Origin: an uncultured Oscillospiraceae bacterium
Lineage (GTDB): Bacteria; Bacillota; Clostridia; Oscillospirales; Oscillospiraceae
DNA: 64,000 nt
NCBI GenBank assembly: GCA_934667815.1
Contig: CAKUMO010000002.1
Coordinates: 56,413-120,412, forward strand
Reading direction: 5' to 3'
Shown here: in pieces, positions 14,388-63,892 of the stretch
Numbering within the stretch: position 1 is the first letter of the stretch
Layout of the letters: each line of letters starts with the position of its first letter
Program-made: the position numbers and the translations under genes
The notes under the pieces: model-generated
Database searches by the model: none
What the model was told of the DNA's origin: nothing
What the model saw: the letters and a program-made list of their open reading frames with translations, nothing else

Positions 14388-14622
14388 AAATCGCCCTGAG
14401 CATTGGCTCAGGGCGAAAAACTCCGCGGTACCACCTGAATTCCTCACAGCGTGAGGCACTTCGCTCTCTGTAACGGGAGAACCCGTACCGACCTAAGCGA
14501 CCACTTCGGTCGGTGCGCTCGGGAGCGACCTTTCCTCCGGCCTTCGCAGGGACTTGCACCGTCCGTCCCCTCTCTGCATAAAAGACCGAAATACTTCTCT
14601 CCGTCAAAGCGTTTGGCAATAT
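14388..14622 (-). promoter_or_regulatory. T-box leader of valS (valine specifier GUC)
   Basis: The minus strand carries the T-box core GGTGGTACCGCGG (within 14417-14437), followed by a terminator hairpin (14392-14400 with 14406-14414) and six Ts. Upstream, the specifier region reads GUC followed by GCUCCCGAGC, which fits the usual pattern of a codon followed by a CUCC...GAGC tail. The triplet is at 14527-14529. Uncharged tRNA-Val should therefore switch on valS. The 5' end is set by the promoter and is approximate. Confidence 0.92.
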
Positions 14623-43818: not shown

Positions 43819-45042
43819 TTATCCCAAAATTGCCTTGTGATAGACCTTCTTGCCCTTGCGAAGGCGGACGCCCTTGCGGAGCTGCTCAGCAGTGAAGCTG
43901 ACGTCGATGGATGCGACCTTCTCGTCGTCGGCAAACACGCCGCCCTGCTGAACGAGACGACGTGCTTCAGACTTGCTGGGCGCAAGCTTGCAGGCCAGCA
44001 GGAGATCGAGAATTGCGATCTTGCCGTCGGTGAGCTGTGCCTCGGTCAGCGTCGTCGTGGGCATATTTGTATCATCCGCACCGCCCGCAAAGAGCGCCTT
44101 GGCAGCAGCCTGTGCCTTTTCGGCTTCTTCCTCTCCGTGGACGAGCTTCGTCAGCTCGTAGGCAAGAATCTCTTTCGCACGGTTGATCTGGCTGCCCTCC
44201 CACTTTGCCATTTCGTCGATCTGTTCGAGCGGCAGGAAAGTCAGCATGCGGATGCACTTCATGACATCGCCGTCGCCGACATTGCGCCAGTACTGATAGA
44301 AATCGTAGGGACTGGTCTTGTTCGGGTCGAGCCAGACGGCGTTGCCCGCGGTCTTGCCCATCTTATGCCCCTGCGAATCGGTCAACAGCGTGATGGTCAT
44401 TGCGTGTGCGTCCTTACCGAGCTTGCGGCGGATCAGCTCCGTGCCACCGAGCATGTTGCTCCACTGGTCGTCGCCGCCAAACTGCATGTTGCAGTCATAA
44501 TGCTGGAACAGGTAGTAGAAGTCGTAGCTCTGCATAATCATGTAGTTGAACTCAAGGAAGCTCAGGCCCTTCTCCATGCGCTGCTTATAGCACTCGGCGC
44601 GAAGCATATTGTTCACGGAGAAGCAGGCGCCGACCTCGCGCAGCAGATCGACATAGTTCAGGTTCAGCAGCCAGTCGGCGTTGTTGACCATGATGGCCTT
44701 GTCCGGCCCAAACTCGATAAAGCGCTCCATCTGGCGCTTGAAGCACTCGGCGTTGTGCTCAATGTCCTCGCGCGTGAGCATTTTGCGCATGTCCGTGCGG
44801 CCGGAGGGGTCGCCGATCATGGTCGTGCCGCCGCCGATGAGCGCAACAGGCTGATTGCCTGCCATTTGCAGACGCTTCATGAGCGTCAGCGCCATAAAAT
44901 GACCGGCGGTCAGCGAATCGGCGGTGCAGTCAAAGCCGATGTAGAACTTGGCCTTACCGTTGTCGATCATCTCGCGGATCTCCGCTTCATTGGTCACCTG
45001 CGCGATCAGGCCGCGGGCGACGAGTTCATCATAAATTTTCAT
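43819..45042 (-). CDS. tyrS: Tyrosyl-tRNA synthetase
   Basis: A 407-residue class I synthetase. The HIGH-equivalent is TAGHFM near residue 45 (FDCTADSLTAGH), the tRNA-Tyr-specific NMQFGGDDQWSN is present, and the KMSKS equivalent is HKMGKTAGN. A C-terminal S4 domain starts near 340 (SKSEARRLVQQGGV). KMGKT is a known bacterial variant of the TyrZ-like subgroup. Start 45042 follows AAAGGAG. Control is by a T-box leader. Confidence 0.97.
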   Translation of the reverse strand: MKIYDELVARGLIAQVTNEAEIREMIDNGKAKFYIGFDCTADSLTAGHFMALTLMKRLQMAGNQPVALIGGGTTMIGDPSGRTDMRKMLTREDIEHNAECFKRQMERFIEFGPDKAIMVNNADWLLNLNYVDLLREVGACFSVNNMLRAECYKQRMEKGLSFLEFNYMIMQSYDFYYLFQHYDCNMQFGGDDQWSNMLGGTELIRRKLGKDAHAMTITLLTDSQGHKMGKTAGNAVWLDPNKTSPYDFYQYWRNVGDGDVMKCIRMLTFLPLEQIDEMAKWEGSQINRAKEILAYELTKLVHGEEEAEKAQAAAKALFAGGADDTNMPTTTLTEAQLTDGKIAILDLLLACKLAPSKSEARRLVQQGGVFADDEKVASIDVSFTAEQLRKGVRLRKGKKVYHKAILG

Positions 45043-45065
45043 GAAATTACTCCTTTTTTGAATAT

Positions 45066-45330
45066 AAAAAGTCCTCTGTCCATGCGGACAGAGGACGTAA
45101 AATACGCGGTACCACCTCTGGTTCGCCGCCATCTCGCGATGCGCGGCCTCGTGGAGTCAGTGACTCCGGCGCGTAACGTGCGCAGACCGTTCTCCCCTAC
45201 TGCCGCCACAACGCGGGGTTCGGACAGACCGCTCCGGGAGGTATTTCGCGCACACTCGCCTATCGCCTTGCACCCACCGGCGACTCTCTGAATGGCCGAA
45301 CTGCCGCTACTTTTCCCATCACAGCGTTTT
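45066..45330 (-). promoter_or_regulatory. T-box leader of tyrS (tyrosine specifier UAC)
   Basis: The minus strand shows the T-box core GGTGGTACCGCG (near 45105-45117), a terminator hairpin (45071-45081 with 45086-45096) and five Ts. The specifier triplet UAC (45241-45243) is followed by CUCCCGGAGC, matching the pattern seen at the valS leader. The 5' boundary is approximate. I found no good promoter between here and yajC, so read-through from tgt-yajC is possible. Confidence 0.9.
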
Positions 45331-45346
45331 ATATGTCAGAGCAGGT

Positions 45347-47156: not shown

Positions 47157-50100
47157 TTAGTTCATGTGTTTTTTGCGCGTCAGGACTGCAACCACGAAGG
47201 CAGCAGCGGCAGCGGACATGGTCAGAACTGCGATCCAGAGCGTGATATTCGCTTCGTCGCCGGTCTTAACGCTGTCGCGGACAGCGCCGCAGCGCGTGCA
47301 CTTACCGTTCTTGTAGTCATGACCAAGCGCCTTGATGACCTCGCCCTTCTTAACAACTTCCTTGCAGGTCTTGCAGACCTCGTCGCCGGTGTAGCCGTCT
47401 TCGGTGCAGGTAGCTTCCTTCGCGCCGACGATCTCGGTGTCGTGGCCATTGGCCGCGATTTCCTCGGTCTTTGCATCGGTATAGGTCTTGTCATCGAACA
47501 CCACGGTAGCGGTGTAGGTGCGTTCGCCCTTCTCGGTGCAAGTCGGCTTGGTGGTCACTTCGTTGGTGATTTCAGCGGTCTTGACTTCGACATGGTTCGC
47601 GTCGTTCGCGCAAGTGAAGGTCGCAGTCGCGCTCTCCAGTCCGGTCCAGCTCCAAACGGGCTCGCCATAGGCATGGCCGGTCGCGGCGATTTCCTCGGTC
47701 TTTGCATCGGTATAGGTCTTGTCGTCGAACACCACGGTAGCGGTGTAGGTGCGTTCGCCCTTCTCGGTGCAGGTCGGCTTGGTGGTCACTTCGTTGGTGA
47801 TTTCAGCGGTCTTGACTTCGACATGCGTTTCGTCGTTCGCGCAAGTGAAGGTCGCAGTCGCGCTCTCCAGTCCGGTCCACCTCCAAACGGGCTCGCCATA
47901 GGCATGGCCGGTCGCGGGGATCACGGTGCTGTCCTTGACTGCGTCGCAGTTCTTGCAGTGGATGGACTTGCTGCCGTCGGTGGTGCAGGTGGGTTCCTGA
48001 TCGACAGTAAAGTCATCCTCCCAAGCATGGCCGGTGGGATCCACATCCACCATCTCGGTGTGCTGGCAAACCTTGCAGGTACGAACCTTCATGCCCTTGT
48101 CCTGGCACTTCGGCGCAATGATGACCTGCCATTCGCCGTAGTCATGGCCGCTGGCGGGGATCGCCGTGACATCCTTCTTCGCATCGCACTTCTTGCAGTG
48201 GATGGACTTGCTGCCTTCAACGGTGCAGGTCGGAGCCTGATCGACAGTGAAGTCGTCGTCCCAATCGTGGCCGGTGGCGTCGATCTTGGCGATATCGGTA
48301 TGCTGGCAGACCTTGCAGGTGCGGCTCTTGACGCCCTGCTCCTCACACTTCGGCTCAACGACGGTGACCCATTCGCCATAGTCATGGCCGTTGGCGGGGA
48401 TCGCTGTGCCGGTGCCGACCTTCTTGCCGCAGACGGTGCAGTAGGAATCGCCGGTGTAGCCTTCGAGCGTGCAGGTCGCATCATGTGCGTTGCGGATCTC
48501 GGTGTCCTTATGGAATTCAGCGGTCAGCGTCTCGGTGAGATCAACCTGCTTGTCGTTCAGCTCTGTCTGATGGATGGTGATCACAGGAGCGGTCTCGACC
48601 TTGGTCGGGTCAACGCTGAAGGTCAGGGTCGCAATGACCGTACCGGCAGCGACGCCATCCAGATCGACATAGCCGAGGGTGACCTTGCCGGCCTCGTCCT
48701 TGTGAGAGGTGTAGTCGGCATACATGGCCACATCGGTCAGGGTGAGCAGGGTGGAGTCATATTCGACGGTAGCAAGGCCGTTGGTGGTCGCTTCGTCGCT
48801 CTTGGCGACGACGTTGACGGTAACGGTCTTTTCATCGGCGGAGACGGTCACGTTGGAGACCTTGGTCTCGTTGGCAACCGGAGCGTCGAGCGGGAGCAGC
48901 GTCTCAGACTTCGTCGACGGAGCGACGTTCAGAGAGCCGGTTGCGGGTGCATTCTTGGAAACAATCTTCACAGCCTGTGTCTTTTCAACGGAGATTGCGG
49001 AAACCTCAGCATTCTGTGTTGCAGACATTTCGTCAGCCTTCACAGAATCTCCATCCGCTGTCGTGCCGTTAACAGTGACCTGATGAATCGTCGCAGGCCA
49101 AATCTTGTCGCCGAAGTTGCCAATGTTGGAGGCGCGCCAGAAAAGGGTCGTACCACTTCTCATGAAGCTCATGCGATAAATCTGGTTGGTGTCACCGTCA
49201 AAGTAAGACAGATAGAGGTAGGAATAACCATCTTCCTCGGAATAGAGCAGTGAGCAGTTCATGTCGTCCTCATAGCCGGGGAAGCTCAGAGAGGACGGAA
49301 GAGTGGTCTGGAAATAATTCCACGGAACAAATTCGAGTTCGCCGTTCACGTAGCCCATTGCCAGCATCCAAACATAACCGGCGTTGTCAAGTGCCAGGAA
49401 CATTTCAGCCTGTTCCTTGACGCCGTCATCGTCGAGATCCAACTGCGATTCGCCCATCGTCGTAACGGCAACAAAGGCGCTGGCGCCGGTAAATCTTGCC
49501 AGTAAGGTGGAAGTGTTAAAGCCGTATGCGCTGAATTCATCTGCACCGTAGAGGCCGAAGATATACGAGCCATAGGTATACAGGAACACAGGCTTCTCAG
49601 CGGTGGAGAACGCCTCGCTGTAGGTAATGTCCCAGATGGGCAGATTCTCGGAGCCAAGGGAAATTCCGGGATAGGAGGCAATGTCCTCGCCGGTAACCGG
49701 GTCAATCTTATGGATATTATAGTTCGCAGCATCGATTGAGAAAACAACATTCTCGCGGGAATCCAGCGTAGTGGCAACAACAGACTTGCTGGCAAGCGCA
49801 ACGCCGCCCTTCCACGTTGCATCCGTATCGAGATTCCAGTCATAGAACATCGCTTTCCCGTCAGTATCCTGAAGCGCACCACGGAGCGTTGCTTCAATCG
49901 TAATAACATTCACGGTGCAGCTTGCGCTCTTGGTATCGTCCTTGACAGAGGTCGCGGTGATGACGGCCTCGCCCTTGCCGACAGCGGTAACGATACCGTT
50001 CTTGTTGACGGTCGCAACCTGCTCGTTGGAGGAGGACCACGTCACAGTGTCGGGCTGCACGCCGAACGGGCTGACCTCAGCCTGAAGCGTAGCGGTCTGA

Positions 50101-53100
50101 CCCTTGTAGAGCGTCAAAGCCTCGTCGCTGATCGTGACAGACACGTCTTCCTTCAGCTCATCCTTGTTCAGGTTGATCTTGAAAGTGCTGTAGTTGTCAG
50201 CGTAGTCATAGACACGGAGCATCAGATGCGTAACATCGTCGATGCCGTCTGCGTTCAGTGCAAGTGCAACCTTGTCGCCAAGCTTTGCATTCTCGGGAGA
50301 ACCGGCAATCTTGTCGATAATGTCACCGGTGTCATAGTCAAACAGAATGGCTGCCGCAACATAGCGGTTATCAATTGCTTCTGCGATGAGCTGCTTGGTG
50401 CCGTTCTTCAGGTCTTCCTTGAAGTAGACCTCGGAAAGCTCCGGAGCAGTCTTATCAACATAGGTCACATAGGACTGCGTTGCACCGTCGGCAAGCGCAC
50501 CCCAGTCGGTCACGGCGGAGGAACCGCTGTAGTCCACATAGTACTCCGGCGCCATGGTCAGGCTGATGGTGAGCTTCGTGCCTTCGGGAGCCTTGGGCGC
50601 GGCGTTTGTATTCAGGCTTGCATAGGTACCGGCCCAGCGCCCACCATTGCTATAGTAGTATGCGGAATCGACCGACTGATCAAGGACAAGATTCGTATAT
50701 TCCTTGCCGTCGTCGCCAACAATGGTGAAGCGGCCGTTAGCGGCATTACGGATCAGTGTGAATCTCATCTTCGAGATCGTGGTGGTATCCGGGTTGATTG
50801 CGTTGCGGTCCTCGTCATAGAAATCTTCTTCGATGTAGGGGTTGCCGCCAAAGTAGTAGCTGGAGGAATCGCCTTCGTACTGAATGATCAGCGTCTGGTA
50901 ATTCAGGGCGTTGTTGCCCGCAGCATTATACATGTAGGGAGGACGATCCTCAAGGCCGTTGGAATACTCGAGATAGCTGCCGATGTCGTACATGGACGGC
51001 TCGGACCAGCTGCCGTAGTAGCCGAGCACGGGAATGGAGTGCTGCGTGCCCTCGACGCCCTCATCGCTGGAAAGCTCGGTCGCGTAGACATAGCCCTCGA
51101 CATAGGTGCCGGTGCCGTCGCTGGCCGCGTCGTAAAGTGCCAGCGTTTCCTTGCTGAGCTGCGCGGTCACGGTGACATGGACTGAGCCATTTGCCGGAAC
51201 CAAAACGGCGCTCTTGCCAAGGCGCTTAAAGAACAGATACGCATCATAGGTGTCGATGTTGCCATCGGCATCAAAGTCGGCATGGTCCTTTTCGTTGATC
51301 TCGGTTCGCACGCCGGTCACATAGTCCAGCAGCGCCTGACCATCTTCGTTGTTGATCTTGCCGTCGCCGTTGAAGTCGCAATGCTCCAGACCGGAGGGAT
51401 CCTCGGTTTCGACGGTCTGACCATCGATGCTCCAAGTGACATTCGCAGGGATCAGCGCTGTCCGCGAATCTTCAAAGTAGATGACGGAGCCGTCAGAGAA
51501 GCGGTTACCGAAAATATCCTGCGTGAAGAAATCCGAATCAAGGGTGAACGCCGTATCGGAGTTCTCCATATTATAAATGGTAAAGCCAAAGGAATACAGG
51601 CCGTCGCGGTCGGGATCGTCACCAAGCTCCGCCTTGATCTTGCCGTCCTTGTAGGAATCGGTCGCGTTGGCATCCATCAACAGGTAGCTGCCGCTGGAAA
51701 CCGCAGCGCCAACGTTGGCAAGTCCGGCGCCCTGACGAAGCACGGGATAGTAACCGACGCCGTCTTTGCCATAATCCTCGATCATCGGCTCAGCAGTGGA
51801 CATGAGCAGGCTCTGTGCCAGCGCACGCACCGACAGGCCGGCCTTTTCAGACAGACCGTTTTCCTTGATGTACTGCGCGACGACTGCCGCCATGCCCGCG
51901 ATCTGCGGAGAAGCCATGGAGGTACCGGACATATTCTGGTACGCGCCGCCGTTCTTCAGGGAGTAGATGTTGCCGCCGGGGGCGGAAATTTCAGGCTTCA
52001 GCTCCAGAGAACCGGGAACGCCCCAGGAGGAGAAGTCGCTCATGGTATAGTAGTCATTCGGTGTGATGGCGGCTGCAACACCTTCAGCGATATTGAGCTT
52101 GCCGGTGTAGTACAGGATCTTTCCGCTCCCGTTCCTGACTGCGGTCGCCTTTTCCTTGATCGCGAGCGCGTCGGCCAGCGAGATGCTGACAGCAGGCTCC
52201 GTCTTGGTGTAGTCGGAGAAGTCCATGTTGATGCTGCCAGCCTGGTTGTTCGCAACGATGGTCGCGATTGCGCCGTTACTGACAGCGTTCTCCGCCTTTA
52301 CATAGAAGGAGATCTCACCGCGGTTGCAGATGGCGATCTTACCGTTCAGAACGTCCTTGACGGCCTCGAATTCTTCGGCAGTGCCGAGAGAATCGATGTA
52401 GACGAACTCGTGCTCACCAGCGAGGGTGAGGATGCTGACGTTCGAATACTTGTTGCCATCGCTGTCCTCGAGGGACTCGTTGTAGAAGATCTTCGTGCCG
52501 TCCATCTCAATGTAGTTGCCGGTCTTGCCGATATTATCGACAGAGGCAACGGCAAGGGAGTTCGTGAAAGAGCCGGGCTGACCGTCGGTCTGCCAGCTCA
52601 CGGACTCGGAGTACGGATAGCCAAACTTCGTATTCTCAAACCAGTTGCCGGAGTTACCCGCGGACATCGCAACGACCATGCCGCTGTCGGTGACCCGCTG
52701 GAGAATGGCTTCATAAGCAGCGTCGGCATTGTGCGAGTAGCCGGGGTTTCCGCCGCCGAGGGACAGGTTTGCCGCATCCGCGCCGAGCACCATGGCGTCC
52801 TCAATAGCTGCCATATAGTCGGAGTCGTAAGCGCCGCCGCCCTTGCCGAACACCTTCATGACCAGAAGCTGCGCATCCGGCGCAACACCCTGTGTCAGGA
52901 CGCTATCCAGAGCATTGGAATAGGTTCCGTCGCCGTTGGCCGTGTAGCGGTTTCCCGCCGCGATACCGGCGACATGGGAACCGTGATCGCCCTGGGTGTC
53001 ATTGTCGTGCGTAACATCCAGATCTTCATCAATATAGTTGAAGCCGTAAGGAATCTTGGCATTGACATAAAGCTCCTCGGCAGTCGTGCCCTTGCGGCTC

Positions 53101-53870
53101 TTGACCGCGTTGAGCTGCCCGAGAACCTTGGCCGTATCGACAGCAGTCATCGGAACAGTATCGGTGCCCTTTACCGCATAGCTGTATGCAGACGGATTGA
53201 GGGACGGATGATCTGTGTCCGCGCCGGTGTCGATGATGGCAATCTTGCTGCCTGCGCCGGTGTAGCCGGAAGCCCATGCAGTGATGGAGCCGATCATTTC
53301 ATCGGAGGTAGACATGTTCGGGTCGGTCGTCTCGTTGTCCTTGATGACGCACGGCTCATAGCGCGTCTCAATAAGAACCTTTTCAACGCCGGAAACCTTC
53401 TCGATCGCTTCGATCTGACCATACTCCACGTTTGCGGAAATGATGTTCGCAGCGAGAGTCAGATTCCACACGACGTCGAGTTTTTCGCCGTCCAGAGCTT
53501 TCTTGGAGATGGTCTTTTCCATCTTCTCCTGCTTGCTTTCCAGCCCCATACGGTACTTCACGGCGCGGGCATTCGCATCAGCGATCTGCTCGGCGGTAAA
53601 GCCCTTTTCCAGGGTGGAATCATCGGACAGCACGATGGAAACACGGACGACGTCCGTATCCGCGTACTGCGGTTCTTCCTCATCGGTTGCGACATGATCC
53701 TTCACAGGAAGGTCAATGTCCACCGAATCGTTGTCGACCTGCTCGAAAGAAACCTCGTGCTTTGTCGCTGCGTCCGCATCCACCGCGATGGACGGTGTGA
53801 TGAGGCTCACCGACAGAACGAGCACAAGCAGCACGGCAACGATCTGTTTCCAGAGGTTCGTGTGTTTCAT
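47157..53870 (-). CDS. Giant secreted subtilisin-like protease with dockerin-like, Big_2 and cohesin-like domains
   Basis: About 2237 residues. A signal peptide (AVLLVLVLSVSLITP) and a propeptide precede an S8 domain with Asp216 (IIDTGAD), His298 (HGSHVAG) and Ser653 (GTSMASP) counted from the ATG at 53876. A PA-like insert lies between His and Ser, as in lactocepin/Vpr proteases. Two EF-hand-like loops (DFNGDGKIN, DFDADGNID; about 51209-51390) form a dockerin-like pair. Big_2 (49912-50150) and a cohesin-like domain (48540-48880) follow. The tail has repeated CxxC modules and two near-identical 77-residue repeats, then VKTGDEAN, a membrane helix and RKKHMN. Either of two close ATGs could be the start. 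Likely a cell-surface protease or complex component. Confidence 0.93.
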   Translation of the reverse strand: MKHTNLWKQIVAVLLVLVLSVSLITPSIAVDADAATKHEVSFEQVDNDSVDIDLPVKDHVATDEEEPQYADTDVVRVSIVLSDDSTLEKGFTAEQIADANARAVKYRMGLESKQEKMEKTISKKALDGEKLDVVWNLTLAANIISANVEYGQIEAIEKVSGVEKVLIETRYEPCVIKDNETTDPNMSTSDEMIGSITAWASGYTGAGSKIAIIDTGADTDHPSLNPSAYSYAVKGTDTVPMTAVDTAKVLGQLNAVKSRKGTTAEELYVNAKIPYGFNYIDEDLDVTHDNDTQGDHGSHVAGIAAGNRYTANGDGTYSNALDSVLTQGVAPDAQLLVMKVFGKGGGAYDSDYMAAIEDAMVLGADAANLSLGGGNPGYSHNADAAYEAILQRVTDSGMVVAMSAGNSGNWFENTKFGYPYSESVSWQTDGQPGSFTNSLAVASVDNIGKTGNYIEMDGTKIFYNESLEDSDGNKYSNVSILTLAGEHEFVYIDSLGTAEEFEAVKDVLNGKIAICNRGEISFYVKAENAVSNGAIATIVANNQAGSINMDFSDYTKTEPAVSISLADALAIKEKATAVRNGSGKILYYTGKLNIAEGVAAAITPNDYYTMSDFSSWGVPGSLELKPEISAPGGNIYSLKNGGAYQNMSGTSMASPQIAGMAAVVAQYIKENGLSEKAGLSVRALAQSLLMSTAEPMIEDYGKDGVGYYPVLRQGAGLANVGAAVSSGSYLLMDANATDSYKDGKIKAELGDDPDRDGLYSFGFTIYNMENSDTAFTLDSDFFTQDIFGNRFSDGSVIYFEDSRTALIPANVTWSIDGQTVETEDPSGLEHCDFNGDGKINNEDGQALLDYVTGVRTEINEKDHADFDADGNIDTYDAYLFFKRLGKSAVLVPANGSVHVTVTAQLSKETLALYDAASDGTGTYVEGYVYATELSSDEGVEGTQHSIPVLGYYGSWSEPSMYDIGSYLEYSNGLEDRPPYMYNAAGNNALNYQTLIIQYEGDSSSYYFGGNPYIEEDFYDEDRNAINPDTTTISKMRFTLIRNAANGRFTIVGDDGKEYTNLVLDQSVDSAYYYSNGGRWAGTYASLNTNAAPKAPEGTKLTISLTMAPEYYVDYSGSSAVTDWGALADGATQSYVTYVDKTAPELSEVYFKEDLKNGTKQLIAEAIDNRYVAAAILFDYDTGDIIDKIAGSPENAKLGDKVALALNADGIDDVTHLMLRVYDYADNYSTFKINLNKDELKEDVSVTISDEALTLYKGQTATLQAEVSPFGVQPDTVTWSSSNEQVATVNKNGIVTAVGKGEAVITATSVKDDTKSASCTVNVITIEATLRGALQDTDGKAMFYDWNLDTDATWKGGVALASKSVVATTLDSRENVVFSIDAANYNIHKIDPVTGEDIASYPGISLGSENLPIWDITYSEAFSTAEKPVFLYTYGSYIFGLYGADEFSAYGFNTSTLLARFTGASAFVAVTTMGESQLDLDDDGVKEQAEMFLALDNAGYVWMLAMGYVNGELEFVPWNYFQTTLPSSLSFPGYEDDMNCSLLYSEEDGYSYLYLSYFDGDTNQIYRMSFMRSGTTLFWRASNIGNFGDKIWPATIHQVTVNGTTADGDSVKADEMSATQNAEVSAISVEKTQAVKIVSKNAPATGSLNVAPSTKSETLLPLDAPVANETKVSNVTVSADEKTVTVNVVAKSDEATTNGLATVEYDSTLLTLTDVAMYADYTSHKDEAGKVTLGYVDLDGVAAGTVIATLTFSVDPTKVETAPVITIHQTELNDKQVDLTETLTAEFHKDTEIRNAHDATCTLEGYTGDSYCTVCGKKVGTGTAIPANGHDYGEWVTVVEPKCEEQGVKSRTCKVCQHTDIAKIDATGHDWDDDFTVDQAPTCTVEGSKSIHCKKCDAKKDVTAIPASGHDYGEWQVIIAPKCQDKGMKVRTCKVCQHTEMVDVDPTGHAWEDDFTVDQEPTCTTDGSKSIHCKNCDAVKDSTVIPATGHAYGEPVWRWTGLESATATFTCANDETHVEVKTAEITNEVTTKPTCTEKGERTYTATVVFDDKTYTDAKTEEIAATGHAYGEPVWSWTGLESATATFTCANDANHVEVKTAEITNEVTTKPTCTEKGERTYTATVVFDDKTYTDAKTEEIAANGHDTEIVGAKEATCTEDGYTGDEVCKTCKEVVKKGEVIKALGHDYKNGKCTRCGAVRDSVKTGDEANITLWIAVLTMSAAAAAFVVAVLTRKKHMN
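47455..47916 (-). repeat. Two tandem 231-bp repeats in the protease tail
   Basis: Copies at 47455-47685 and 47686-47916 are nearly identical (few base changes, such as ATC/GTC and GAG/AGC-type swaps). Each encodes 77 residues (GEPVWxWTGLESATATF...). Near-perfect identity suggests recent duplication or an assembly-sensitive spot. Confidence 0.9.
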
Positions 53871-53949
53871 ATGCATTCTCTCACTTTCCCCGGCAATGCC
53901 GGAATTGTTGCAGCGGATGACTTGAAATCATCTACCTATAATGGTATTT

Positions 53950-57873: not shown

Positions 57874-58596
57874 TCAGGTGGAGTAGCCGCCGCCGACGTC
57901 GTAGCCAAGGTCGCAGGTATAGTGCCATTCAACAACGTCGCCGTCTTTCAGCTCATAGCGCGAGCAGCCGTAATTCGGGAACCACCCGTTGACGCTGTAC
58001 ATCCAGCCGGACAGCGAACCGACATCGAATTCGTAGAGGTTGTTGATGCCCTCGATATAGGCGGTGTTATAGAGACCGGACCAAGTAAATTCCAAATGGA
58101 GCTTGTTCTCGCGGCAGATACGCTGCAGTACATCAAAGACGCTTTCCCCCTCCGTGAAGGTCACGGTGCTGCGTGGGAAGATCACGCCGTCGGACGGAAC
58201 AAGCGGCTTTTTCTCCTCGTCGCACTGATCCCAGTTATTCAGGATCGTGGCACAGGAGATGGAGAACGTGCAGGTGGCAGTGCTGCCCTCAGTCGCAGTG
58301 CCCGGCTCCACGGGCGCAGGCCGTCCCTCCGGAACAGGGTCGGTCTGATAGCGATCCTTGCCTGTGGCAGGATCAATCTCCTGCGTAGGAGCCTCGCTCT
58401 CTCTCGGTGCTTCCGTCTGCGCAGGTTTCTCGGTCGTAGGCGGCGCTTCCGTCTCTGTTGGCTCGGCCTCCGAGGAGGCTGACAGCTCCTGCGTGGGAAC
58501 AGCCGAAGCCTGCGGAACGGTCTTTCCCGCGCAGGCGGTGCAAAGCAGGAGCACTGCCAGCAGCAGCGCCGCCAGCCGGAGCGTTCGATTCTTCAT
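57874..58596 (-). CDS. DUF4430 lipoprotein, probable corrinoid-binding partner
   Basis: A 240-residue lipoprotein (signal ending LLLCTAC, lipid Cys near residue 22). A Pro/Thr/Glu-rich linker (about 25-100) is followed by a DUF4430 domain (about 105-240) with SCATILNN, GESVFDVLQRICREN, NNLYEFDVGSLSGWMYSVNGWFPNYGCSRYELKDGDVVEW. In animals this fold is the C-terminal beta domain of transcobalamin and intrinsic factor. It lies 68 bases after the riboswitch-controlled surface protein, so it probably shares that transcript. The suggested role is to receive cobalamin at the membrane; this is inference. Confidence 0.87.
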   Translation of the reverse strand: MKNRTLRLAALLLAVLLLCTACAGKTVPQASAVPTQELSASSEAEPTETEAPPTTEKPAQTEAPRESEAPTQEIDPATGKDRYQTDPVPEGRPAPVEPGTATEGSTATCTFSISCATILNNWDQCDEEKKPLVPSDGVIFPRSTVTFTEGESVFDVLQRICRENKLHLEFTWSGLYNTAYIEGINNLYEFDVGSLSGWMYSVNGWFPNYGCSRYELKDGDVVEWHYTCDLGYDVGGGYST

Positions 58597-58616
58597 ACGT
58601 TGCTTCCTCCTGAAAG

Positions 58617-58657
58617 AGCCGTGCGCAGAGGTGCGGAAAGCACCCCTGCGCCGGCTT
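58617..58657 (-). terminator. Strong hairpin between the B12 surface protein and the lipoprotein
   Basis: AGCCG...CGCAG(G)GGTGC pairs with GCACC..CTGCG...CGGCT around a TTTC loop, nearly 18 paired bases. The T tract is weak (CTCTTTC). It may partly terminate transcription or protect the mRNA, giving less lipoprotein than surface protein. Confidence 0.5.
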
Positions 58658-58664
58658 TAATTTC

Positions 58665-61600
58665 TTATTCCGCCTTGCGTTTTTTCCGGGTGAGCACAAA
58701 CGCCGCAGCCAGAGCAGAGACGGACAGCGCAAGGAACCATACCGTCACGCCGGAGTCACCGGTCGTGGGCGTGGTGGGCTTCGCCGGTTCGAGCGTGATG
58801 GTCACGTCGCGCATGTCGTACAGGCTCGACTGCTTGTTCATGAAGCGGTAGTACGCAGCCAGCGCATAGTAGCCCTGCTCGGTCGCCATGCCGTCCAGCT
58901 TGCCGTTGGCAAGATGGCGGAAGCCGCCGCCCTCGACATAGTAGCCTGCCAGCGCATCCAGCACAGTCTTGCCGTTCTTCACGAAGCGGCTGTCGGCAGT
59001 CGGGTCGATCCCCAGCGCCGTCAGAGCCACGAGCACCTGTGCATTGGACTCACAGGTTGCCTCGCCCCAGCTTGCAAAGCCGCCGTCCGTGAGCTGCAGG
59101 ACGGAGAGCACAGTCAGAGCCTTGTCTACGGCTGCCTTGACGGTTTCATTGCCTGCATAGTACGGCGCAAGCGCCTGAATTGCCATTGCGGTCATGTCGG
59201 TGTCCGCGGTGTCGCCATCCAGCGCCCAGCCACCGTTGGCCAGCGCAGCGTCCAGAATGGCCTGCACAAGCTTCTCTCTCGTCACGTCGCCGCTGACGGG
59301 GTAGACATGGCTGTCCAGCGCAATCAGTGCAAAGACGGAGCCGTTGATGCCCTGCTTCTGAATATAGGCCATGCTGTCCAGGCCCTTGAGTAGATTGTGA
59401 CCGCCGACGTTCGTAACATCCTTACCGATGGCCGTCAATGCCAGAATGATGCGGGAATTGTCGGTCGATCTGGAGCGGTGGAGCCGCTCGTTCTGGTCGG
59501 CGTGCGCCTTGACGTACTCGACAACCGCCTCATAGTAGCCATCCGGGACGGTACGGCCGGAACGTGCCAGACCAAGCGCCATCCAGTCGCCGCCGACGGA
59601 GCCGACAGACGGCGTACCGAGCGCGGTAAGGTAGTCGCCGGTGGTGGTGTAGATATGCTTCAGGAGTGCGGCACGCTTCAGCTCAGTCAGCTTCTGCTCG
59701 GCAGCGGTCAGGGTGGCATAGTTTTTCACGCGTGCCTTCTGTGCGTCGGACAGTGCGTCATAGGCTTCTCGGGCAGCAGTGATGGTCTTCTCGGAATCGA
59801 GGGTCACATCGCCGATGGCATCGATCTTGGCCTCAACGGCGTCGATCTCAGCCTGCTCGGCCTTTTTCAGCGCGGCCAGAGTGGCCTCCGCAGCGGTGAG
59901 CACCTTATAATTATTGACCAGCTTCTGCTGCTCCTCGGTCAGCGCATCATAGGCTGCACGGGCAGCGGCAATAGCCTCCTCGCTTTCGAGGGTCACATCA
60001 CCGATCGCGTCGATCAGGCGCTCTGTTTCCGCAACGGCGTAGCCCTCCAGCTTGATGACCAGCTCCGGAAGCTGCGACATCACACCGGCCGTGGCCGTGC
60101 CAAACTGACGGTCGATGCCCTTGGTGTAAGACACGCCGCGATGGGTTGGCAGGCCGCCGAAGCCGCCAATCTTGATCGAACCGTTGAGCACATAGGCCGT
60201 GCCCGTCGTATCCTCGGGGATAGTGAGCGTGAACTTCTGACGCTCGGGGTTTCCATTGAAGTCATAGAGGCCGAAGGGGCCGGGCAGAACGCCCTGATAG
60301 CTGTGGCCATTGTCGTCGTGATAATACACCAGGAAGTTCTGGTTGAACACGCCGGCCAGCTTCTCCTTCGGAGAAAGCAGGTTGTGGAACTGGACGGTCA
60401 CGGTATCGCCGGGCTTGAACTCGGTGTTCTCGGGCAGGACGTTGCCTTCCGCGTCGAGCAGGTCGTAGCGCGCCTGACGTGCGGTGATGACCTGATACGT
60501 TGCCACACCGTCCTTTTCAATCCGGACGATATGACGGCCCGTGGTCAGGCCAGTGAGGGTGACGGCGCCGGTCTCGGCATCGACGCTCACACCTTCGCTT
60601 GTAAAGCCGGAGAAGGTCATGGTCTTACCGACCGTGGAACGGGCAACCGTCACGGTGCAGCCGGATTCCGGTGTGAAGGTGTAGCTCGCGCCTGCGGTGC
60701 CGAGATAGAACAGAATGTCATGCTCAGCGTCCAGTGCAAGCTTTTCGTCGGTAAGCGTTCCGGCCGAGCCGGTGCGGTCGATCTGCATGTTGGTCGCAAT
60801 CGCGGAGCCGTCTGCACCGACACTGACAACAAACACGCCCGTGCTCTCCGGCCAGATGGCGGAAAGCACCTTACTGTCGGTGGTGCTCTGCGCCTGCTTG
60901 TGGGTCATGGCATCATAGGTCACAAGGACGATGGCCGTACCCTCACGGTTGGCGGTCACGGTGGCCAACGAGGAATTGCCGGCATCGGGCGTGACGGTCA
61001 GCAGATCGCTGGGCTGGCCATTCAGGTCGAGCACCTGATAGTGCACATCCGGCAGTGCGATCTTGGCATTCATAAAGCTCTCGATAGCCTGCCAGTTGCG
61101 GAACACATTCAGCTCGAAGTGTTCTCCGACGGACAGATTCTTGTAGCCCTGACGATTGATGTTCAGATACACGTCCGCGCGGTCGTAAACGTTGTTTTCA
61201 TAGCGGTACACTGTGGACGCGGAGATATCGTCGTCCATGTGCAGATCTTCGCGGGTAACGGTGATGTCCTGCGCAGCAGTCCACTTATCAAAGCTCCAAT
61301 AGGTCACCCCTGCAGGATTCTGCACCCGCAGGAAGTGGTTCAGGTTGGTCGTGGGCACACGGAAGGAGGCGGTCAGGGTGCCGTCGCCGTTGTCGGTCGT
61401 CTGCACGGGATCGATAAATGTATAGGAATAGTAGTTGCCGAAGGTGCCGGTCACGACGGTAGAGCCGGTTGGCGCGGTGATCTTCACGTCCAATCCCTGC
61501 GGGATGGAGGCGCTGATGCTCAGGGCGCCTTTGTCCACGGTCTCCGAACCGGTCTTGGTAACGGTGATGGGCAAATAGTCCTCCGTCTTGTCGCCGATAG

Positions 61601-63569
61601 GCTTCAGAGTGACTTTCAGGGTGTCGCCCTCAAGGAAAATTGCGGAGGTGTAGACCGTGCCGTAGTTGTTGGCGCTGCCGAGGGCGGTTTCGCGCAGAGT
61701 GCCGTCGGACGCGGTCTCGACATACTCGATAGTGTAGTCCGTGCCGACCTTCCAGCCGCTGTTGCTGGCATAGATCTGATTCGCACGCTGGAGCACGAAG
61801 GTGCAATCCTCTGCCCCGACCGTCACGACGATGCTGCCGTTGAAGTCGCCGTTTTCATCATAGCCCTCGACGAGGTAGTCGCCGGGCAGCATGGTGATGG
61901 CATACTTGAGCTTATAGCCGTCAGGCTCTGCGGTGAGGTCAGCCAACAGATCGGCAGTGCCCTTCCCGCCATTCTGGTAGGTATAGACCTTCAGGTCGGC
62001 AAGCTGGGCAGTGTGCAGCCCCTTGAATTCCACATTGACCTTGGAGAGCACGGCAATTCTTTCGCTGGGGTTCATAATGGCATAGACCTCGTCGTCGCTG
62101 TTGGACAGAGCCACGAGATAACCGCTTGCAGTCTTGTCAGCGGCAAAGGAAGCCGTACCGTTTTCATCTGTAACCGCGTTCTGAATGGCAGTCACTGCGC
62201 CGGTGGCAGGCTCCAGCCAGCCGAGCTGCACGCCCTCGAGCGTCTTTGCTGCGGCCTTCAGCGCAGCCCCGTCCTTATAGAGATACGCGCTGGCTGCGTA
62301 GAAGCCCTTAACGGTCACATTTACCTTCTCCCCCTCTGCGACGGCAGTGGGCGCATCGATCCAAGTGTAATAATCGGACCAGGCGTCTCCGTCCTGATAG
62401 AGGAAGAAGTCCACGGTGTCTCCGTCCTGTACGGCAGTGTTCGTAATGAAGGTGCCGTTATAGCCGCCGGTGGCAGAAGCCGTGCCGTCATTGGGGCAGC
62501 CCTCGTTAACGAAGAAGCCGAAGCTGTCGGTCAAGCCGAACGCAACCGAAACCCAGCCCGTGCTGCCCACACTCAGATAGGTCGAAGCGGTCTGCGGCGT
62601 AAAGTCCTCGCCAAAAACCAGTTCGTGTGCCTTGACCAATACGTCCAGCGCAGAAACGCCCTCGACGCTGTCGGTAAAACCGTAGCTTTCAGCCAGATTT
62701 CCGGCGACCTGCAAGGTTTCAATGCCATGCAGATAAGCGCCAGCCGCCTGCGAACGCACGGTCACATTGGCCTTTGGGATACGCGGACCGGCCTTCACAG
62801 TGACAATATAGGTCGTAGGAACGACCGCATCGTTGTATTCGGTCGCTTCCGCCGCATCGCCGCAGCGGAGCGTCAGCACCGTGCCATCCTCCATGGGGAT
62901 AGCCGCCGAGCGGCGATAACTCGTCTCGCCCACACTCAGATAAACCTGATTGCACTTGTTGGCTGCCGTGACTGCAACGCACACGTCGCCCGGCTCGGCC
63001 AGAGTCAGAGTGTATTCCAGAGTATCCTTATTAAAAGCGGGAGACAGCGTGCCGCTGCTGAAGGACAGCGCCGCCAACGCGGTATTGCTCTGCGTGCTCC
63101 AGTCGCCGCCGATGTCCGCGCCATAGCCGGTCTTGGTGTATAGAACGCGAATCTCGTCTCCGGCGGCCAGCGTGCCGTCCTTCGTGTTGAAGGCGGAGAA
63201 GGAGGCATTCGTGAACCAGTCGTTCAGCGTGCCCATCCAACCGGATTGTGCGCCGCCGTCCATTTCGGCAAGACCGTTCACCTCACCGAGGTATTCACCG
63301 CCATAGGTGCTGCTGGCCGTCTCGTAGGAATAGTGGTTCTTTTCCAACGCGTCCTTTACGCAGCTCATCATGGTGGAGTCATCCTTCAGGGTGACCCATT
63401 CGTCTACCAGCGTTCCTTCCCAAGGAGCGCCGTCGGCCTTGGCCCATGTGGTGTTTTCCACACGAACACGAACCTGGCCGTCGTGGCCGCCCACTGCAAG
63501 CGCGGTGACGGGCAGCAAAGACAGCACCATGACCAGCGCAAGCAGCAGCGATAACACTCGTTTTTTCAT
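58665..63569 (-). CDS. Riboswitch-controlled giant surface protein with DUF4430 domains and an alpha/alpha toroid
   Basis: 1634 residues. A signal peptide (RVLSLLLALVMVLSLLPVTALA) leads into a DUF4430 domain (about 33-140; SGWMGTLNDWFTN), a cadherin-like beta sandwich and a second DUF4430-like region (about 270-400; SALDVLVKAHELVFG, GFFVNEG). Several beta domains follow, then two 60-residue helical repeats (DAIGDVTLxSE...AAYDAL). Residues 1302-1589 form an alpha/alpha-toroid (squalene-cyclase/prenyltransferase-like): ANGGWALDGD, TDGGFASWGE, EGGGFRHL. The end is TPTTGD, a membrane helix and KKRKAE. The start is the ATG at 63569 (AGAGGAAG upstream). Animal intrinsic factor combines these same two folds, and the cobalamin riboswitch upstream supports B12 binding. 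Confidence 0.9.
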   Translation of the reverse strand: MKKRVLSLLLALVMVLSLLPVTALAVGGHDGQVRVRVENTTWAKADGAPWEGTLVDEWVTLKDDSTMMSCVKDALEKNHYSYETASSTYGGEYLGEVNGLAEMDGGAQSGWMGTLNDWFTNASFSAFNTKDGTLAAGDEIRVLYTKTGYGADIGGDWSTQSNTALAALSFSSGTLSPAFNKDTLEYTLTLAEPGDVCVAVTAANKCNQVYLSVGETSYRRSAAIPMEDGTVLTLRCGDAAEATEYNDAVVPTTYIVTVKAGPRIPKANVTVRSQAAGAYLHGIETLQVAGNLAESYGFTDSVEGVSALDVLVKAHELVFGEDFTPQTASTYLSVGSTGWVSVAFGLTDSFGFFVNEGCPNDGTASATGGYNGTFITNTAVQDGDTVDFFLYQDGDAWSDYYTWIDAPTAVAEGEKVNVTVKGFYAASAYLYKDGAALKAAAKTLEGVQLGWLEPATGAVTAIQNAVTDENGTASFAADKTASGYLVALSNSDDEVYAIMNPSERIAVLSKVNVEFKGLHTAQLADLKVYTYQNGGKGTADLLADLTAEPDGYKLKYAITMLPGDYLVEGYDENGDFNGSIVVTVGAEDCTFVLQRANQIYASNSGWKVGTDYTIEYVETASDGTLRETALGSANNYGTVYTSAIFLEGDTLKVTLKPIGDKTEDYLPITVTKTGSETVDKGALSISASIPQGLDVKITAPTGSTVVTGTFGNYYSYTFIDPVQTTDNGDGTLTASFRVPTTNLNHFLRVQNPAGVTYWSFDKWTAAQDITVTREDLHMDDDISASTVYRYENNVYDRADVYLNINRQGYKNLSVGEHFELNVFRNWQAIESFMNAKIALPDVHYQVLDLNGQPSDLLTVTPDAGNSSLATVTANREGTAIVLVTYDAMTHKQAQSTTDSKVLSAIWPESTGVFVVSVGADGSAIATNMQIDRTGSAGTLTDEKLALDAEHDILFYLGTAGASYTFTPESGCTVTVARSTVGKTMTFSGFTSEGVSVDAETGAVTLTGLTTGRHIVRIEKDGVATYQVITARQARYDLLDAEGNVLPENTEFKPGDTVTVQFHNLLSPKEKLAGVFNQNFLVYYHDDNGHSYQGVLPGPFGLYDFNGNPERQKFTLTIPEDTTGTAYVLNGSIKIGGFGGLPTHRGVSYTKGIDRQFGTATAGVMSQLPELVIKLEGYAVAETERLIDAIGDVTLESEEAIAAARAAYDALTEEQQKLVNNYKVLTAAEATLAALKKAEQAEIDAVEAKIDAIGDVTLDSEKTITAAREAYDALSDAQKARVKNYATLTAAEQKLTELKRAALLKHIYTTTGDYLTALGTPSVGSVGGDWMALGLARSGRTVPDGYYEAVVEYVKAHADQNERLHRSRSTDNSRIILALTAIGKDVTNVGGHNLLKGLDSMAYIQKQGINGSVFALIALDSHVYPVSGDVTREKLVQAILDAALANGGWALDGDTADTDMTAMAIQALAPYYAGNETVKAAVDKALTVLSVLQLTDGGFASWGEATCESNAQVLVALTALGIDPTADSRFVKNGKTVLDALAGYYVEGGGFRHLANGKLDGMATEQGYYALAAYYRFMNKQSSLYDMRDVTITLEPAKPTTPTTGDSGVTVWFLALSVSALAAAFVLTRKKRKAE

Positions 63570-63636
63570 GCTTGTGATCTTCCTCTCATTTGATGGTATT
63601 TGGCAACGCCTTGCGGCGGAGTTGCAGAAACGAAAA

Positions 63637-63663
63637 CGCCCGTCTGCCATTGGCAAACGGGCG
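63637..63663 (-). terminator. Expression-platform terminator of the cobalamin riboswitch
   Basis: The minus-strand stem CGCCCGTTTGCC/GGCAGACGGGCG (one wobble pair, 3-base loop) is followed by TTTTCGTTTC. A GTTGCAG/CTGCAAC pairing around it (63622-63628 with 63670-63678) could help switch states. Confidence 0.75.
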
Positions 63664-63734
63664 CACGGAACTGCAACGCAGATACCTCAAATATCGCATT
63701 GCTGAGCGTTCGACCCCGGTAATGGCAGCGGTCA

Positions 63735-63849
63735 GGGAACGGTGCCTTGCGTATCTGACTTATCCGGCACAAGCCGGCATCACAGTGACCCACTCGCGGG
63801 GCATCTCACCCCATTCCGCCGTCGGAGCTGCCTCCGACCGCACCGTCCC
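63735..63849 (-). promoter_or_regulatory. Cobalamin riboswitch aptamer
   Basis: The minus strand reads, in order, GGGACGGTGC (P1), an arm GTCGGAGGCAGCTCCGAC, GGAATGGGGTGAGATGCCCC (canonical GGTGAAA core), GTCACTGTGA (B12-box-like), a hairpin GCCGGC..GCCGG, AAGTCAGATACGC (canonical AAGTCAGGAnACC) and GCACCGTTCCC closing P1. These match the conserved cobalamin riboswitch order. With the terminator downstream it should switch off the gene when cobalamin is plentiful. Assignment of subclass and exact ligand is not possible by eye. Confidence 0.92.
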
Positions 63850-63863
63850 AATATTTTTTTGTT

Positions 63864-63892
63864 ATTATATCACCATGCGGAACTATTTTCAA
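63864..63892 (-). promoter_or_regulatory. Promoter of the riboswitch transcript
   Basis: Minus-strand TTGAAA (63887-63892), a 17-base spacer and TATAAT (63864-63869), directly upstream of the aptamer. Confidence 0.85.

Follow-up and report, generated by a model that had tools for sequence, protein, structure and literature searches.

The window analysed here, a stretch of 64,000 nucleotides (64 kb) from an uncultured Oscillospiraceae bacterium (contig CAKUMO010000002.1), carries at its right end, on the minus strand, a structured leader followed by the genes of a 1634-residue surface protein and of a 240-residue DUF4430 lipoprotein. We consider it likely (probability about 0.84) that these form a unit for the extracellular capture of vitamin B12 or related corrinoids, which would use a predicted toroid-DUF4430 clamp and pass the catch to an energy-coupling factor (ECF) transporter with a CbrT-like S component, probably encoded elsewhere. 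Such an intrinsic-factor-like capture of B12 or another corrinoid had been proposed by an earlier reading of the letters alone (the sequence-only reading); this putative role is well supported, because the predicted fold, the riboswitch linkage across relatives and the neighbouring ECF transporter of relatives, with its CbrT-matching S component, all point to it, whereas a second DUF4430 domain in the large protein, part of the same proposal, did not stand.

Proteins of the locus and their likeness to animal B12 carriers

The gene order on the minus strand is a promoter-like site (63864..63892; TTGAAA-17-TATAAT with an extended TG, 11 of 12 positions agreeing, a consensus match only), the structured leader, a terminator-like hairpin of 13 pairs between leader and first gene (63636..63664), the gene of the 1634-residue protein (58665..63569, open frame from the ATG at 63569, signal peptide read by eye) and the lipoprotein gene (57874..58596, lipobox-like LLCTAC read by eye), which starts 68 bases past the end of the preceding gene. 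Promoter, terminator and the two open frames in this order had all been claimed by the sequence-only reading and were recovered. A terminator-like site was looked for between the two genes and none was found. EcfT, the ECF ATPases and an S component were not found beside the window pair; a ribokinase-like gene (named by eye), with its own promoter-like site, follows the lipoprotein gene instead.

The large protein consists of a DUF4430 domain, a weak cadherin-like match, a long middle part, a toroid and a C-terminal anchor. The DUF4430 / SLBB domain (residues 44-158, 63096..63440) scored 109.3 bits with a profile of relatives, and Pfam DUF4430 matched residues 65-145 (E 1.5e-5, 25.8 bits against a cut-off of 23.8). 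The second such domain, claimed near residues 265-405, was rejected, with 0.0 bits by the relatives' profile and an hhalign probability of 1.5. The alpha/alpha toroid, claimed earlier as well, was located at residues 1310-1592 (58794..59642) with 376.3 bits, by a profile from alignment A4 (49 sequences) that includes the window's own copy; the fold itself was seen in a model of a relative, L022, and the window copy was assigned to it by homology to the relatives' profile. At the C-terminus, the proposed wall or membrane anchor corresponds to an LPXTG-like match (residues 1601-1632, 58674..58769) just over the NCBIfam cut-off (16.1 against 15.9) and under that of Pfam (15.5 against 20).

The assignment of the lipoprotein to DUF4430 was confirmed by Pfam (E 1.2e-19, 71 bits against a cut-off of 23.8). 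Its beta-grasp domain (57877..58287) shows a transcobalamin-like fold in the predicted model, nearest by Z to the beta domains of B12 carriers, with a helix at 50-60 and strands at 65-72 and 76-84, where the confidence is partly lower. PMC4350170 describes the DUF4430 domain as the C-terminal part of the animal carriers. The B12 carriers are only slightly closer to the window domain than PDB 3u7z (R. gnavus RUMGNA_00854), a solved structure annotated as 'putative metal binding protein', whose ligand may merit re-examination.

The likeness extends to the combination of domains, since in L022 (780-2399) toroid and DUF4430 are fused in one chain, in the domain order of animal intrinsic factor, and the fused gene sits behind an Rfam cobalamin riboswitch. 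Animal B12 carriers make up all of the 15 best PDB matches of the fused-chain model, for which alignment A8 without the L037 row was used; no B12 carrier stands among the 50 rows of the VIA-align list for L022, which is no exclusion. Searches by sequence gave no such link: no animal cobalamin-binding Pfam family was listed for the window proteins up to E 1, and the toroid and DUF4430 profiles retrieved no intrinsic factor or transcobalamin chain from PDB. Identity to the animal carriers is 11-19% in the alignments, and ligand contacts are therefore not transferable from them.

A conserved operon with an ECF transporter in relatives

Relatives were collected with the lipoprotein alone; 310 were confirmed by a search of genome contigs, and the best 80 of the 310 were kept, while a plasmid collection gave no match. 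The usual operon comprises a toroid protein, the DUF4430 lipoprotein, EcfT, and fused ECF ATPases and S component. A toroid gene lies upstream of the lipoprotein gene in 68 of the 74 loci with at least 1.5 kb upstream (the others being L010, L031, L038, L056, L069 and L072); downstream there are EcfT (63/74 loci), ECF ATPases (57/65) and an S component (53/60), L060 being counted as lacking EcfT because the gene stands between those of toroid and lipoprotein. In a sample of one order, 58 of 295 genomes had a lipoprotein match at E≤1e-30, and EcfT adjoins the lipoprotein gene in nine of the ten loci read from it, two of these ten being from genomes that the set of 80 also covers. The operon with an ECF transporter is thus conserved in relatives, and the toroids are homologous.

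In L001, the only operon annotated, we found a CbiQ-type T component and two ABC ATPases above the ECF ATPase equivalog cut-off, with the ECF S component at the C-terminus of the chain that carries both ATPases; in relatives this fusion is one polypeptide of about 890 aa. The sole PDB sequence match of the L001 S component below E 0.1 was 6fnp_A (E 2.7e-9), a 182-residue chain of the ECF-CbrT structure which we take to be CbrT itself. ECF-CbrT of Lactobacillus delbrueckii transports cobalamin and cobinamide (PMC5997447). An S component was present in all 17 genomes searched. Eight loci with at least 3 kb downstream had no ECF ATPase; six were followed (L043 and L070 were left out), and all five genomes of these six loci, which lack an S component, carry one outside them. 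Since relatives without an adjacent S component have it elsewhere, the transporter of the window bacterium is likely to be encoded elsewhere in its genome, in agreement with the sequence-only reading.

The dual specificity of CbrT bears on the nature of the ligand. The pair might capture a different corrinoid, be it cobinamide, pseudo-B12 or another cobamide; intrinsic factor would then be the right guide to the fold and the wrong one to the ligand. Besides CbrT, this proposal can draw on the low identity to the animal carriers and on CbiD, present in 10 of 20 genomes, which suggests that carriers may need only precursors or remodelling; no data, however, favour any one corrinoid, and we regard it as rather unlikely. 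The cobalamin riboswitch class senses B12 forms and says little about the form that is captured. As for B12 itself, the distribution of CbiD led us to reject auxotrophy as a general rule for carriers; the methionine synthase activation domain was mixed as well (14 of 20 genomes at E≤0.001, 12 of 20 over the cut-off).

Linkage to cobalamin riboswitches was assessed with Rfam in 46 of the 80 loci. Of 35 RF00174 matches in these, 27 lie no more than 1.2 kb upstream of a same-strand toroid or DUF4430 gene, a position for which 8.1% of the sequence qualifies. Counting also matches of a compact model, R1, described below, a linked match exists in 33 of the 80 loci, and neither kind in 18 of the 46 scanned with Rfam. 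Two genomes of relatives are rich in RF00174 matches at E≤0.001, that of L006 (G013, Candidatus Formimonas warabiya) with 15 and that of L015 (G014, Sporobacter termitidis) with 20.

These observations also weigh on a non-corrinoid role, in which the pair would be general surface or adhesion proteins, the toroid binding a glycan or terpenoid and DUF4430 another ligand, with B12 acting only as regulator. Taken alone, the toroid has squalene cyclases as its nearest neighbours, both by Z and in sequence, and toroids occur in epimerases and glucuronyl hydrolases too; among 120 rows of relatives listed, source names are mostly 'S-layer homology domain-containing protein' or 'prenyltransferase beta subunit' and none is B12-related; and archaeal DUF4430-type proteins may scavenge another metabolite (PMC1796856). 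The conserved operon with a CbrT-like ECF transporter, the cobalamin riboswitches upstream in relatives and the DUF4430 fold nearest to B12 carriers argue against such a role, which we hold to be improbable, and speak for corrinoid capture.

The anchoring of the large protein varies among relatives. Eight of 11 toroid proteins tested with Pfam end in a C-terminal dockerin (L009, L013, L016, L019, L052, L061, L062, L063), one carries SLH domains (L006), and two have neither dockerin nor SLH (L004, L022). A protein similar to one in L013 is encoded just upstream of the lipoprotein in 12 of the 80 loci (L013, L016, L018, L023, L027, L028, L031, L052, L056, L063, L075, L080) and in two of ten further loci (L087, L089); Pfam called cohesin in all three of these neighbours tested (L013, L016, L063). 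Dockerins or the cohesin gene are carried by some Ruminococcus versions. The domain assignments suggest that dockerin and cohesin of these loci may bind each other, and the cellulosome plug may here serve to catch a vitamin.

The leader and a compact riboswitch form

The leader adopts an aptamer-like minimum free energy fold (63736..63849, z -2.26) with an outer helix (63849-63840 paired with 63745-63736), a hairpin at 63838-63821, a P4-like hairpin at 63812-63798 and a short hairpin where P6 would be, the helix names being our assignment by analogy with cobalamin riboswitches. Its core, consisting of GGGGUGAGAUGCCCC, GGUCACUGUGA and AAGUCAGAUAC (63751..63818), is common to leaders of the same genes in relatives, as seen first by motif and then by covariance model.

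The covariance model R1 rests on six compact sequences, one from the window and five from relatives, and its score on the window leader (73.5 bits) follows by construction. At E≤0.001 it gave 30 matches over 81 sources. The 29 matches in loci all share the strand of the focal lipoprotein gene; 24 of them precede a toroid or DUF4430 gene by no more than 1.2 kb, and 19 overlap RF00174 matches found independently; the other ten divide into five loci scanned with Rfam without RF00174 at that place and five outside the Rfam scan. Scores of at least 50 bits upstream of the same kind of gene were obtained in nine loci (L004, L009, L012, L019, L061, L062, L064, L076, L050), five of which are in the model, a sixth, L061, scoring the same as the model member L019. 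The single RF00174 match of the R. bromii genome at E≤0.001 (27 bits, below the cut-off) coincides with the L019 R1 site.

A second model, R2, guards against circularity: it derives from 15 segments of RF00174-confirmed riboswitches and leaves out the window and all compact leaders; 31 sites were considered (the 35 minus four removed by hand), of which 15 fitted the pattern and 16 did not. Its best match in the 64 kb of the window is the leader, at 63819-63780 (19.6 bits, E 0.0041; next match 8.9 bits), where the conserved core that confirmed RF00174 members show between P4 and ACTGT is recovered. Covariation was measured on alignment A3 (27 distinct rows) for five pairs, four of the P4-like helix and one closing the next hairpin; it reached 0.626, against 0.136 when shuffled and at most 0.100 when slid, in an alignment that was fitted to the structure and in which all 133 cells pair. 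The window leader thus shows a riboswitch-like core whose P4 helix covaries among relatives.

One result counts against B12 regulation of the locus. The sequence-only reading had called the leader a cobalamin riboswitch and had named a below-threshold Rfam covariance-model score as a refutation, and the leader indeed stayed without an RF00174 match, both at the gathering score and in two permissive scans with a limit of E≤10. The Rfam part of the claim was therefore lost, while the likeness to cobalamin riboswitches was retained through R2, R1 and covariation. This missing match at every threshold tried would suit a chance look-alike or a decayed riboswitch, with the pair expressed regardless of B12. 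Against that stand the first rank given to the leader by a model built without it, the nine R1 loci of at least 50 bits, the covariation, and the promoter-like and terminator-like sites that flank the leader, and we give this explanation little credence. Because of R2 rank, R1 overlap and covariation, we judge the Rfam score to be a limit of RF00174 on a compact form, in which only the short hairpin stands in the place of the larger P6 region of canonical members; in our view this difference is why Rfam misses it. The leader is predicted to bind cobalamin, most likely turning the operon off when B12 is plentiful.

Elsewhere in the window, on the minus strand, two T-box leaders scored above the Rfam cut-off (14406-14616 and 45088-45331), the latter at the start of a tyrosine-tRNA-ligase-like frame (43819-45132), and a 2239-residue subtilase (47157-53876) contains a PA domain and a bacterial Ig-like domain, besides matching dockerin weakly at an internal position (E 2.1e-5).

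Proposed mechanism and comparison with known systems

In the mechanism that we propose, the leader would let transcription through when B12 is scarce, and a corrinoid would be caught by the wall-anchored protein, with toroid and DUF4430 domains holding one molecule between them either within the large protein or across both proteins. At the membrane, the lipoprotein might then take over or co-bind the corrinoid and offer it to the S component of an ECF transporter presumably encoded elsewhere in this genome. The sequence-only reading suggested further that such capture might let the bacterium compete with host intrinsic factor. For a broader picture the odds seem about even: Gram-positives would run a complete B12-regulated intrinsic-factor system, with a split toroid/DUF4430 wall clamp, a DUF4430 lipoprotein relay, a CbrT-type ECF pump and, in some, a compact cobalamin riboswitch missed by Rfam; the Ruminococcus catcher would be plugged by dockerin into a membrane cohesin, as a counterpart of the cellulosome that catches a vitamin; and such proteins would be the ancestors of animal intrinsic factor. 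Failure of intrinsic factor causes pernicious anaemia. If the proposal is true, bacteria grip B12 with the same type of clamp as animals; the operon offers bacterial relatives of intrinsic factor and defined proteins for a direct test of B12 capture.

That this clade scavenges B12 has been predicted before, by Burroughs et al. (2007; PMC1796856). They described transcobalamin-like SLBB domains of bacteria, together with toroids, wall anchors, paired paralogues and CbiO/CbiQ operons, and suggested low-GC Gram-positives as the source from which animals acquired the protein. Their statement that carriers are usually without key B12 enzymes is not borne out as a rule by CbiD. We found no experimental test of the prediction in the open-licence literature searched. 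The words riboswitch and lipoprotein are absent from the main text of that paper, and, as far as the open-licence literature searched shows, the riboswitch link, the compact form, the CbrT link and the dockerin/cohesin form are new. The operon connects what was predicted in 2007 with a riboswitch, and with a transporter component that has a relative of proven specificity.

Animal intrinsic factor, transcobalamin and haptocorrin combine a toroid with a beta-grasp domain, as here, and hold both in one chain in the order matched by L022. They differ from the window system in that more than 1100 residues separate its DUF4430 domain from the toroid that follows, a further DUF4430 standing on a separate lipoprotein, in that the window protein is apparently surface-anchored whereas the animal ones are freely secreted, in that the ligand here is predicted, and in sequence, by the low identity and the lack of a PDB sequence-profile match. 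As in ECF-CbrT, the S component of L001 comes with EcfT and two ATPases; unlike there, S component and ATPases are fused in relatives, extracellular toroid and DUF4430 proteins are added, and in the window the transporter genes are not adjacent to the pair.

BtuG is a surface B12-binding protein beside a transport system, and the folds of BtuG and BtuH differ from those here. Cobamide acquisition is described as less known for Firmicutes than for Bacteroidetes, whose surface B12-binding proteins BtuG/BtuH (PMC8941943) are named as a functional analogue only; theirs is an outer-membrane TonB system, in contrast to the Gram-positive type of wall anchor and ECF transporter proposed here. Compared with the transcobalamin-like SLBB proteins of 2007, the present system adds riboswitch linkage, a compact riboswitch, a CbrT-like S component fused to two ATPases, and dockerin/cohesin anchoring.

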